Made by a program: the position numbers and the translations under genes. Positions 350 to 58,042 of a DNA stretch of 64,000 nt are shown piece after piece. Every line of letters begins with the position of its first letter. Position 1 is the first letter of the stretch. The notes beneath the pieces were generated by a model that saw nothing but the letters and a program-made list of their open reading frames with translations, was not told the DNA's origin and made no database searches. Source of the DNA: Burkholderiales bacterium (GTDB lineage Bacteria; Pseudomonadota; Gammaproteobacteria; Burkholderiales; Burkholderiaceae_C); contig JACRNC010000011.1 in the NCBI GenBank assembly GCA_016219375.1, forward strand, positions 124,001-188,000, written 5' to 3'.

Positions 350-424
350 ATGCGTTTGGCCTGCTTTTTCTTCGGCTATTTCTGGTTCTCGCACCGCCCC
401 GGCGGAGGAGAGGCCAGCCTGTAA
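350..424 (+). CDS. Aromatic amino-acid-rich leader peptide of aroG
   Basis: A 24-codon frame (ATG 350, TAA 422-424) contains the run FFFGYFWF at codons 6-13: five Phe, one Tyr and one Trp codon in eight positions. It is followed by a perfect intrinsic terminator and then by DAHP synthase, the first enzyme of aromatic amino-acid synthesis. This is the layout of the enterobacterial pheA and trp leader peptides, where ribosome stalling at scarce charged tRNA controls termination. An extended -10-like element (TG-C-TAAAGT, 333-341) lies so close to the ATG that translation could be nearly leaderless; no strong Shine-Dalgarno is seen. The function is inferred from codon content and RNA layout. Confidence 0.75.
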   Translation: MRLACFFFGYFWFSHRPGGGEASL

Positions 425-458
425 GCCCAAAGCGAGCAGCGCAGACCGAATCCCCAAA

Positions 459-490
459 CCGCCGGGCTCCTCGCCCGGCGGTTTTTTTTT
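459..490 (+). terminator. Intrinsic terminator of the aroG attenuator
   Basis: Perfect 9-bp GC stem CCGCCGGGC / GCCCGGCGG (459-467 and 473-481), 5-nt loop, then nine consecutive T (482-490). It lies upstream of the aroG start with no complete gene before it except the aromatic leader peptide, so it probably acts as a conditional terminator. Confidence 0.92.
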
Positions 491-3828: not shown

Positions 3829-4008
3829 GGCGGCTGATTATGATGGAGCGATACCTGCCGGCGCTGCCGTAAACACCCAGGTGGAGCGGCTGCTGTTTCG
3901 GCTTCAATGCGGCTCCCGCGGCGGGCGTGCCGATCGCCTCTGCCGGGCCGCCGCCGCAGGCCGGCCCTTGCCCCTGCCCCCCGCGCCGTTTCAATCAAGG
4001 GATATCCG

Positions 4009-4452
4009 ATGCTCCGTGCTGCAACCCTGCGCCGCGCTGCCCGCCATGGCCGCGGCTTCACGCTGATCGAGCTGATGGTGGTGCTGGTCATCATCGGCCT
4101 GCTGGCCGCGCTGATCGTGCCCAACGTGCTCAACCGCGCCGAGGAAGCGCGCGTGACCGCCGCGCGCACCGACATCAACAACCTGATGCAGGCGCTCAAG
4201 CTCTACCGCCTGGACAACCTGCGCTATCCCACCGCGCAGCAGGGGCTGGATGCGCTGCGCAGCAAGCCCACTGCGCCGCCGGTGCCGCCGAACTGGAAGC
4301 CTTATGTCGAGAAGCTGCCCAACGACCCGTGGGGCAACCCGTACCAGTACGTCAATCCCGGCGTGAAGGGCGAGATCGACATCTTCAGCTTCGGCGCCGA
4401 CGGCAAGGCCGGCGGCGAGGGCAACGACGCCGACATCGGCTCGTGGCAGTGA
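4009..4452 (+). CDS. gspG: Type II secretion major pseudopilin GspG
   Basis: A 147-residue pseudopilin, the main subunit of the secretion pseudopilus. A 16-residue basic leader ends in Gly, followed by the prepilin peptidase site and N-methylated helix (G16 then FTLIELMVVLVIIGLLAALIV). The body carries the conserved PNDPWGNPYQY segment and a C-terminal calcium-binding-like region (FGADGKAGGEGNDADIGSW). The start at 4009 has AAGGGA about seven bases upstream. It opens the long gspGHIJKLMNDEF run. Confidence 0.97.
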   Translation: MLRAATLRRAARHGRGFTLIELMVVLVIIGLLAALIVPNVLNRAEEARVTAARTDINNLMQALKLYRLDNLRYPTAQQGLDALRSKPTAPPVPPNWKPYVEKLPNDPWGNPYQYVNPGVKGEIDIFSFGADGKAGGEGNDADIGSWQ

Positions 4453-4479
4453 CGGCCTGAGGGCTGCGGGCGGAGCCCG

Positions 4480-4962
4480 ATGCGACGCGCGCGCGGCTTC
4501 ACGCTGATCGAGCTGCTGATCGTGGTGGCGCTGATCGCCGTGGCCAGCTCGGTGGTCACGCTGGCGCTGCGCGACCCGGCGGCCACGCAGCTGGAGCGCG
4601 AGGCGGTGCGCCTGGCCTCGCTGCTCGAATCCGCCCGCGCCGAGTCGCGCGCCCTGGGCCTGCCGGTGACCTGGCTGCCGCGGCCGTCGATGCAGGGCGG
4701 GCAGCGGCGCGACTTCAGCTTCGAGGGCCTGCCCGCGCGCATCAGCCCGCCCACGCGCTGGCTGCAGCCCGATGTGCATGCCGAGGTGGTCGGCGCCACG
4801 CCGGCGCGGCCGGGGCTGCAGCTGGGCCCGGAGCCTTGGATCGGCGCGCAGCGCATCGTGCTGCGGCTGGAGGGCCAGCAGGTGGTGCTGGCCACCGACG
4901 GGCTGGGGCCGTTCGAGATCGAGACCGCCGCAGCCGGCGAGGGAGCGGCCGATGGCTCCTGA
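4480..4962 (+). CDS. gspH: Type II secretion minor pseudopilin GspH
   Basis: A 160-residue minor pseudopilin. Its leader is only six residues (MRRARG) before FTLIELLIVVALIAVASSVV, with the required Glu at +5. The region about residues 40-60 (EREAVRLASLLESARAESRALG) is the usual GspH helix after the stalk. It begins 27 bases after gspG and overlaps the start of gspI by 11 bases. Confidence 0.92.
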   Translation: MRRARGFTLIELLIVVALIAVASSVVTLALRDPAATQLEREAVRLASLLESARAESRALGLPVTWLPRPSMQGGQRRDFSFEGLPARISPPTRWLQPDVHAEVVGATPARPGLQLGPEPWIGAQRIVLRLEGQQVVLATDGLGPFEIETAAAGEGAADGS

Positions 4963-5422
4963 CGCTTTCGCTGCCCGCGCTCATCGCGGTCCCTGCGCTC
5001 CTCTTGCCCGTGTCGGCCGGGCGCAGCGCATCGCGGCCCGTTGCCGCCCGGCCCGCGCCGCGGGGGCCGCAGCCCGCGGCCTGACGCTGATCGAGGTGCT
5101 GGTGGCGCTGGCCATCGTCGCCGTGACGCTGGCCGCCGGCATCAAGGCGGCCGGCGCGCTGACCGATAACGCCCGCCGGCTGCAGGACGTGACCGTGGCG
5201 CAGTGGTGCGCCGACAACCAGCTCACCGCGCTGCGCCTGAGCCGGCAGTTCCCCGGCGTGGGCGAGAGCCGCTATGCCTGCGAGCAGCTCGGCCGCGCAC
5301 TCGACGGCAAGCTGGTGGTGCGGCCCACGCCCAACCCCAACTTCCGCCGCGTCGATGCCGAGGTGTGGGACGAATCCGGCCGAATGGTGCTGCGGCTGTC
5401 CACCGTGTTGCCGAGGTTCTGA
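4952..5422 (+). CDS. gspI: Type II secretion minor pseudopilin GspI
   Basis: A 156-residue GspI-like pseudopilin: the processing site is G43 followed by LTLIEVLVALAIVAVTLAA, with Glu at +5. A WCADNQLTALRL segment and a beta-rich C-terminus ending LSTVLPRF follow. The ATG at 4952 overlaps the end of gspH and has a GAGGGA-like ribosome site; no in-frame alternative start lies between it and the processing site. The leader is therefore about 43 residues, much longer than the 6-16 seen in neighbouring pseudopilins. It ends directly against the gspJ start codon. Confidence 0.9.
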   Translation: MAPDAFAARAHRGPCAPLARVGRAQRIAARCRPARAAGAAARGLTLIEVLVALAIVAVTLAAGIKAAGALTDNARRLQDVTVAQWCADNQLTALRLSRQFPGVGESRYACEQLGRALDGKLVVRPTPNPNFRRVDAEVWDESGRMVLRLSTVLPRF

Positions 5423-6091
5423 ATGGCCCGCCGCGCATCGCAGGGCTTCACGCTGGTCGAGGTGCTGGTCGCCCTGCTCATCCTGGCCGTGATGGCCGGC
5501 ATGGCCTGGCAGGGCCTGGACGGCATGACCCGCTCGCGCGACGTGGCCCAGGCGCGGCTGACGGCCACGCTGCGGCTGCAATCCGTGATGGCGCAATGGG
5601 AGGCCGACCTGGCCGCGGTGCGCGACACCGGCGTCGTGCCCGGGCTGCAATACGACGGCGCCACGCTGCGGCTGACGCGGCGCGTCAATGGCGGCGTGCA
5701 GCTCGTCGCCTGGTCGCTGCGCCCCGGCGGCAATGGCGCTGGCACATGGCAGCGCTGGGCCGGCCCGGTGACCACGCGGCTGGACGACCTGCGCGAAGCC
5801 TGGCTGCGCTCGCAGCAGCTGCTGGGCAACGAAGCCGGGCAGCTCGTCGCGCAGCGGGGCGTGGCCGGCTGGCAGCTCTACTGCTGGCGCAGCGGGGCCT
5901 GGTCCAACTGCCAGTCCAGCGGCGACGTGGCCACCGCCGGCGTCGCCACCCTGCCCGGGGCCGTGCCGTCGCTGTCCACGCGCCAGCTGCTGCCCGGCGG
6001 CGTGCGCCTGGTGCTGACCTTTGCCGAGGGCAGCGGCGTGGCCGGGGGCCTCACGCGCGACGTGGTGCTGGCGCCGCAGTTCGTGCAATGA
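5423..6091 (+). CDS. gspJ: Type II secretion minor pseudopilin GspJ
   Basis: A 222-residue minor pseudopilin with a short leader (MARRASQG) before FTLVEVLVALLILAVMAGMAW. The GspJ-type segment LDGMTRSRDVAQARLTATLRLQSVMAQWEADLAAV follows. In studied systems GspJ joins GspI and GspK at the pseudopilus tip. The start codon directly abuts the gspI stop and its stop overlaps the gspK start (ATGA), indicating translational coupling. Confidence 0.93.
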   Translation: MARRASQGFTLVEVLVALLILAVMAGMAWQGLDGMTRSRDVAQARLTATLRLQSVMAQWEADLAAVRDTGVVPGLQYDGATLRLTRRVNGGVQLVAWSLRPGGNGAGTWQRWAGPVTTRLDDLREAWLRSQQLLGNEAGQLVAQRGVAGWQLYCWRSGAWSNCQSSGDVATAGVATLPGAVPSLSTRQLLPGGVRLVLTFAEGSGVAGGLTRDVVLAPQFVQ

Positions 6092-7239
6092 AGTTCGCAG
6101 CCAAACCATCGATGAGCCCGCCGAGCGCCCATGCCGCAATGACGACGCCTGCAGCCGCGCACCCCCGCGCTGGCCGGCTGGCGGCGGGGTGTGCTGCACC
6201 TGCTTCTCGGGCCCGCCTGGCCATTCGGCGCGGGCCGGGCGCGCGGCCCCGCCAGCGCGGCGCCGCGCTGCTGACCGCGATGGTCATCGTCACGCTGGTG
6301 GCCACGATGGCCGCCACCATGCTCTGGCAGCAGTGGCGCGCGGTGCAGGTGGAGTCGGCCGAGCGCGGCCGCGCGCAGGCCTACTGGATCCTCACCGGCG
6401 CGCTGGACTGGGCGCGGCTGATCCTGCGCGAGGACGTGCGCAGCGGCCAGCCCGTCACCCACCTGGGCGAGCCCTGGGCCACGCCGCTGGCCGAGGCCCG
6501 GCTGTCGAGCTTCCTGGCCGTGGACCGCGAGCACACCGAGGACGCGCCCGAGGCCTTCCTCTCCGGCTCGATGACCGACCTGCAGTCGCGCTACAACCTG
6601 CGCAACCTGGTGGCCGACGGCAAGATCGTGCCGCAGGAGCTGGCTGCGCTGCGCCGGCTGTGCGAGGCGGCGGGCCTGGCCCCCGCGCTGGCCGACGGCC
6701 TGGCCGAGAACCTGCGCCAGGCCTGGGTGGCCGTCGAGCGCGCCACGCCCGAGGCCGCCGCTGCCGCCGCCAGCGCCGCCGCGGCCCAGGGCACCAGCGT
6801 CAGCCCGCTGCCCGACAACCCGCCGCTTGCACCCACCACGCTGGACGACCTGGTCTGGCTGGGGCTGGACGCGGCCTCGGTGGCGCGGCTCAAGCCCTAT
6901 GTGGTCATCCTGCCCGAGCCCACGCGCGTGAACATCAACACCGCGCCCAAGGAGGTGATCGCCGCGGTCATCGACGGGCTGGATCTCTCCAGCGCCGAGC
7001 GCCTGGTGCAGGCCCGCCAGCGCAGCCCGATGAGCTCGCCGTCGGACGCCGCGCCGCTGATGGGCCGCCCGGCGCTGGACGCGCTGGCGCTGGCGCGGGT
7101 GGATGTGGACTCGGCCTACTTCGAGGTGCGCGGCCGGCTGCGCTTCGAAGACCGGGTGGTGGAGCAGCGCTTTTTGGTCAAGCGCGTGGGGCAGGAGGTA
7201 ATTACCCTGCACCAGGAGCGCAGCGCCGGGGTCGAATAG
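6088..7239 (+). CDS. gspK: Type II secretion minor pseudopilin GspK
   Basis: A 383-residue GspK, the large tip pseudopilin. The hydrophobic stalk follows RQRGAALLTAMVIVTLVATMAA, so the processing Gly is residue 58 and the N-terminal extension is unusually long. The large globular domain contains the family segments DLQSRYNLRNLV (about 150) and RVNINTAPKEVIAA (about 290-305). A Glu/Ala-rich stretch (about 215-245) looks like a flexible insertion. The first ATG overlaps the gspJ stop; an internal ATG at 6139 would shorten the leader to about 41 residues. Confidence 0.9.
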   Translation: MKFAAKPSMSPPSAHAAMTTPAAAHPRAGRLAAGCAAPASRARLAIRRGPGARPRQRGAALLTAMVIVTLVATMAATMLWQQWRAVQVESAERGRAQAYWILTGALDWARLILREDVRSGQPVTHLGEPWATPLAEARLSSFLAVDREHTEDAPEAFLSGSMTDLQSRYNLRNLVADGKIVPQELAALRRLCEAAGLAPALADGLAENLRQAWVAVERATPEAAAAAASAAAAQGTSVSPLPDNPPLAPTTLDDLVWLGLDAASVARLKPYVVILPEPTRVNINTAPKEVIAAVIDGLDLSSAERLVQARQRSPMSSPSDAAPLMGRPALDALALARVDVDSAYFEVRGRLRFEDRVVEQRFLVKRVGQEVITLHQERSAGVE

Positions 7240-57780: not shown

Positions 57781-57929
57781 GGGCAGCACTCCAGGCAAGG
57801 GATCGTGGGGAGCCGGGGATGATAAGAGCCGGCCTCAGCGGCCTCCGGCTGCGCGAGCCGGGCACCCGCCACGCCTGCACTGCAGGCCGGCGCACCACGA
57901 AAAACTGTGTGCCCTGCATCCCCGGAAAT

Positions 57930-58042
57930 AAAAAAACCCGGGGTCTTGCAACCCCGGGTTGAATCCACCAATGGAGGAGGGTGGAGGAGACAAACAGTGT
58001 TGCGATAGAGCCGCTGGTGAGCGGCTGGTTTCGCAAACACTG
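57930..58042 (-). ncRNA. Small RNA with anti-Shine-Dalgarno motifs and terminator
   Basis: On the minus strand a promoter (TACAAT, 58049-58054; TTGCGG, 58073-58078; 18-bp spacer) precedes a compact RNA. A long stem (ACAGTGT-TGCGA with TCGCA-ACACTGT, 57994-58005 and 58031-58043) encloses a GCCGCT/AGCGGC hairpin. Then comes an unpaired region with two UCCUCC motifs (57973-57978 and 57983-57988 as GGAGGA on plus). Finally there is a perfect 10-bp terminator with seven T (57930-57960). The exposed CCUCC repeats resemble anti-SD RNAs, including a betaproteobacterial toxic RNA family I recall. It lies upstream of ilvA and might instead be its attenuated leader. Confidence 0.72.

Follow-up and report, generated by a model that had tools for sequence, protein, structure and literature searches.

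The class I DAHP synthase gene aroG of this Burkholderiales bacterium is, with a probability that we put at about 0.93 from comparative sequence evidence, under the control of a ribosome-mediated transcription attenuator. The window, that is, the whole 64,000-nucleotide stretch of DNA that was analysed, carries all parts of this putative switch on the + strand. A leader ORF (350-424), an intrinsic terminator (456-490) and aroG (579-1694) lie there in this order; aroG encodes a protein of 371 aa that matches TIGR00034 (aroFGH equivalog) with 536 bits; a single match in the genome indicates that it is the sole copy found there. The leader ORF, MRLACFFFGYFWFSHRPGGGEASL, comprises 24 codons and a TAA stop codon, and its codons at 365-388 specify Phe-Phe-Phe-Gly-Tyr-Phe-Trp-Phe (FFFGYFWF), as the first-pass annotation of this DNA had described. 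It is the only ATG-initiated ORF of 12-40 codons in the 64 kb with at least five aromatic residues in any nine codons. Ten shuffled windows together contained one such ORF, and none at the stricter level of seven aromatic residues in nine. The terminator is likewise present as first described, with a perfect 9-bp stem (459-467 with 473-481), a loop at 468-472, three additional A-T pairs and a tract of nine T (482-490). The fold z-score is -4.28 for the terminator and -3.99 for the whole leader. Since the 5' neighbour gene, coding for a 7TMR-DISM signalling protein, is divergent and reads away from aroG, the terminator serves no upstream operon. On the 3' side of aroG, pseudopilin-like genes occupy 3907-7239, and a prepilin N-terminal methylation motif lies at 4480-4962.

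The elements that may form the switch are located partly within the leader ORF. Downstream of its aromatic codons, the ORF carries the motif GGCGG and, a few bases further on, GAGAG. GGCGG is a copy of the terminator 3' arm sequence and is able to base-pair with CCGCC of the 5' arm. In the window this copy is region 2 (CCCGGCGG, 398-405), and its duplex with positions 459-466 of region 3 (459-467), which is at once the terminator 5' arm and the 3' partner of the antiterminator, reaches -20.7 kcal/mol. Region 4 (473-481) is the terminator 3' arm. The third switch element is the 1:2 hairpin, in which region 1 (UUCUC, 386-390) pairs with GAGAG (408-412); in alignment A1, 94% of the alignment cells are paired in this helix. 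Thus, what is found in front of aroG, by comparison and prediction, are the features of trp- and phe-type attenuators, namely codons for pathway end products, an intrinsic terminator before the gene and an antiterminator that excludes it. The first-pass annotation was right that an exclusive alternative pairing exists, but it had placed it between 401-410 and 467-475, i.e., with the loop and 3' arm of the terminator. That pairing is possible in the window (-15.7 kcal/mol), but region 2 binds the 5' arm more strongly in all 104 family leaders, with median duplex energies among relatives of -18.35 kcal/mol versus -6.35 kcal/mol, and the sequence of the terminator loop varies among relatives. It was therefore rejected as the conserved antiterminator, and it is highly improbable that the switch operates through it.

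The conservation of the leader was determined in 120 genomes of the same family, nearly all from different genera, of which 118 contain aroG; the upstream DNA of 110 of these genes was examined. An aromatic-rich leader ORF and a terminator precede aroG in all 110 orthologues, including two (L016 and L102) whose leaders fall below the aromatic threshold, and the T tract begins 37-75 nt 3' of the leader stop codon. In L085 the leader starts with GTG. Drifted leaders with His among the aromatic residues, e.g., RFYFWHFHLPPHTGAGVANC, and with GGCGC in place of GGCGG, occur in L002, a genome of the same genus as the window's, and in a close named relative, Comamonadaceae 2PF (L164). The covariance model R1, built from 54 family leaders, detected all 41 held-out leaders tested (E <= 1.6e-9), and in the window's own genome the aroG leader was its only site (E 7.2e-19). 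No comparable element was found before trpE or pheA of that genome. Across the order, R1 matched in 61 of 250 genomes, belonging to 14 families, and each of the 29 loci examined had an aromatic leader preceding an aroG homologue. Named genomes with the leader include Acidovorax, Variovorax, Polaromonas, Comamonas and Hydrogenophaga; Burkholderia, Caballeronia, Paraburkholderia and Cupriavidus lacunae; Massilia, Rugamonas, Janthinobacterium and Oxalobacter; and also Xanthomonas bonasiae and Dyella. No leader was found at the examined loci of Polynucleobacter, Rhodocyclus, Azoarcus, Thauera, Methylotenera and Dechloromonas, or at 19 aroG loci of R1-negative genomes.

Two Cupriavidus aroG copies (L185 and L187) were also devoid of the leader. 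These copies, from C. pampae and C. necator chromosome 2, are the ones closest to the window's aroG, and in C. lacunae (L224) the leader stands before a more distant aroG copy, so that regulation may not be the same for different DAHP synthase paralogues. Among class-wide R1 matches outside the order, three were examined and eight weaker ones left out; two, from one family, are genuine and lie before aroG, and the third (L163) was rejected as a bare terminator. Outside Burkholderiales, the element was thus observed before aroG in Xanthomonas, Dyella and the two genomes of one family (L161, L162, L233, L236). The Xanthomonadales copies may reflect either common ancestry or transfer together with aroG. 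The predicted switch is conserved across most core Burkholderiales and into relatives of Xanthomonas.

The pattern of conservation shows that the distal part of the ORF is maintained as RNA. The reading frame of GGCGG is 0 in 83 leaders, 2 in 20 and 1 in one, so that the motif encodes PGG, PAD/PAV/PAA or others; moreover, in nine genera the stop codon precedes GAGAG, which is still kept. Such frame changes and the retention of GAGAG beyond the stop codon imply that selection in this stretch acts on the RNA and not on the peptide. In alignment A1, 91% of the cells are paired in the 2:3 helix, and four of its pairs are changed on both sides. The covariation score of helices 1:2 and 2:3 taken jointly was reached by none of 500 shuffles, and slid versions pair far worse. 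The compensatory types are GACGG with CCGUC, AGCGG with CCGCU, and GGCGA with UCGCC, of which the first is not explained by 3:4 pairing because the terminator 3' arm is unchanged there. Between families, CCGGCGG/CCGCCGG is replaced by CTGGCGG/CCGCCAG, and 115 of 157 leaders have C-G or T-A at the adjacent position; the permutation test on this between-family pair ignores kinship. A quick aroG tree places the GACGG leaders mostly in one clade, and as several cells share one clade, the independent compensatory events number approximately 3 to 5, fewer than the cells. Covariation is scarce within the terminator helix itself, and the single-locus shuffle p-values are modest because the region is G+C-rich. 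The attenuator interpretation in front of DAHP synthase, proposed in the first-pass annotation, nevertheless came through the alignment of upstream regions, in which the leader and terminator are present in 110 of 110 orthologues and the antiterminator changes in a compensatory manner.

The influence of ribosome position was modelled by folding transcripts that end before region 4, with a ribosome masking 13 nt (an assumed size) counted from the first base of the A-site codon. The median probability of the 2:3 helix was 0.999 with the ribosome stalled at the Trp codon and 0.97 with it at the last aromatic codon; it was 0 for a ribosome at the stop codon, and 0.30 without a ribosome. The corresponding values for the window were 0.99, 0.99, 0 and 0.01. 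The masked folding and the compensatory 2:3 pairs, predictive and comparative as they are, support the earlier proposal that the position of the ribosome chooses between the pairings. Once region 4 is included, equilibrium folding favours the terminator in most leaders, even if the ribosome is stalled. Therefore, the switch must be kinetic and decided during transcription, as is the case in known attenuators. Translation, stalling and readthrough in cells, as we infer them, would proceed as follows. A shortage of charged Phe-, Tyr- or Trp-tRNA would stall the ribosome in FFFGYFWF, where it would cover region 1. Region 2, thus released, could pair with region 3 ahead of the synthesis of region 4. 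The terminator would then come too late, and RNA polymerase would continue into aroG. When charged tRNAs are available, the ribosome would reach the stop codon and cover region 2, allowing regions 3 and 4 to form the terminator. Without a ribosome, region 1 would keep region 2 in the hairpin, and the terminator would form as well.

We predict that the ribosome translates the leader ORF from a leaderless transcript. A predicted extended -10 element (TGC TAAAGT, 333-341) lies 8 nt 5' of the leader ATG, and its promoter spacing is found in 101 of 110 orthologues, in which 6-9 nt separate the start codon from a TAnnnT hexamer upstream of it (TACATT in 71). An upstream TGn accompanies the hexamer in 97 of these 101 leaders, and the same test shifted by 20-50 nt gave only 0-2 of 110. 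A Shine-Dalgarno-like tetramer occurs in one leader and is missing from the other 109. The spacing of the -10 element and the missing Shine-Dalgarno sequence thus point to leaderless translation, with A350 at or near +1; transcription would start at or next to the leader ATG, and the ribosome would load directly on the 5' end. Burkholderia cenocepacia and Cupriavidus metallidurans are both reported to have leaderless mRNAs.

The identity of the sensed amino acids can be considered from the codons of the leader. In the 100 family leaders with an aromatic-Trp core, the Phe and Tyr positions are kept, as are the residues in the window, and the third base alternates between T and C and is almost never A or G, which indicates selection on translation. 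The codon totals are 301 TTT, 187 TTC, 120 TAC, 55 TAT and 105 TGG, and a leader usually contains 3-6 Phe, 1-2 Tyr and one Trp codon. Judging from this codon content, the leader may sense all three aromatic amino acids, as was first suggested, and the codon dose makes Phe the expected dominant signal. No Trp is present in 7 of 110 family leaders. In Massilia, Rugamonas and Janthinobacterium, the sensing block comprises Phe and Tyr without Trp (L209, L210, L225, L226, L228, L229, L231), which suggests a clade-specific change in the sensed amino acids.

Other explanations of the conserved leader have to be weighed against attenuation in cis. The terminated leader RNA or its peptide could act in trans, as do rnTrpL and peTrpL of Sinorhizobium meliloti, with attenuation of aroG being secondary or lost. 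The predicted leaderless start of the ORF and the strong terminator behind it indeed resemble S. meliloti trpL, but the C-terminal half of the peptide shifts with the reading frame while the RNA motif stays, so that only the aromatic block is conserved as protein, and every order-wide locus examined precedes aroG. This alternative is unlikely, and a role in trans would not exclude one in cis. The conservation of sense codons and of three mutually exclusive stems also argues against a protein, or a metabolite that binds the RNA directly, governing termination in place of the translating ribosome. Control of aromatic pathway genes by TyrR and TrpR in E. coli gives this idea some precedent; however, the leader has no Rfam riboswitch or T-box match, and the T/C variation at the third base of Phe and Tyr codons indicates selection on translation, which makes such control very improbable. 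The hydrophobic nature of the peptide and its conserved position would also suit a small peptide gene followed by an ordinary terminator, with no switch at all. Compensatory changes, however, tie the ORF to the terminator 5' arm, the frame of the GGCGG stretch is not kept, and GAGAG is retained past the stop codon in nine genera; hence, this explanation is scarcely credible.

The ribosome-mediated attenuator of aroG may also be part of a broader picture, which we regard as speculative and rather doubtful as a whole. The leaderless attenuator would integrate signals from all three aromatic amino acids at the enzyme that commits carbon to their synthesis. It would have been present in the ancestor of core Burkholderiales and be shared with Xanthomonadales, with a clade-dependent set of sensed amino acids, and its terminated RNA or peptide might additionally act in trans.

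The aroG leader is a real, very well conserved and widespread element of the classical attenuator type that is absent from Rfam 15. The Rfam search proposed at the outset returned no relevant family: the leader had no match, even in a permissive search and with Trp_leader (RF00513), T-box and riboswitch families considered at curated score, and no Rfam leader, T-box or riboswitch match was found at the loci of 15 relatives. The only Rfam match in the window is RF02278, a Betaproteobacteria toxic small RNA, at 57929-57992 on the - strand (65.1 bits). A covariance model of the aroG leader would fill this gap in Rfam. The element provides a concrete candidate control for entry to aromatic amino acid synthesis in a large assemblage of bacteria from soil, water and plants, and its more than 180 distinct leaders constitute a natural series that separates codon choice, reading frame and RNA pairing. 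In metabolic engineering of aromatic compounds, removal of the terminator or a codon swap should release aroG.

Among known systems, enterobacterial trpL and pheL share the design of the aroG leader, with sensing codons and the 1:2, 2:3 and 3:4 pairings. Those leaders, however, are Shine-Dalgarno-led, and the aroG leader differs from them in target gene and codons and has no match to an Rfam leader family. The first-pass annotation knew of no described betaproteobacterial aroG attenuator, and we likewise found no published description of one in Burkholderiales or Xanthomonadales, although the literature covered was mostly non-subscription and so gives weak evidence of novelty. Attenuation of DAHP synthase as such is not new: it was hypothesised earlier for E. 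coli aroF, it is known in Corynebacterium glutamicum and it has been proposed in Acholeplasma. In C. glutamicum aroR-aroF, an aromatic leader peptide (Phe-Tyr-Phe) also precedes the DAHP synthase gene, and transcription rises under Phe limitation, with no effect of Tyr availability (Neshat et al., 2014, in PMC11802643; PMC4046766). That system belongs to another phylum and has no Trp codon in its reported core; the comparison with it covers mechanism and target. Similarly, uORFC-13-1, for which attenuation was proposed, combines a conserved Phe codon and a terminator before aroF, but it is restricted to Acholeplasma and environmental sequences, with 24 examples (PMC8632094). Finally, trpL of the alphaproteobacterium S. 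meliloti differs from the aroG leader in sensing Trp before trpE(G), but transcription of its attenuator begins at the start codon (ATG) of the leader ORF (PMC7298713), the same leaderless arrangement as predicted here for aroG.
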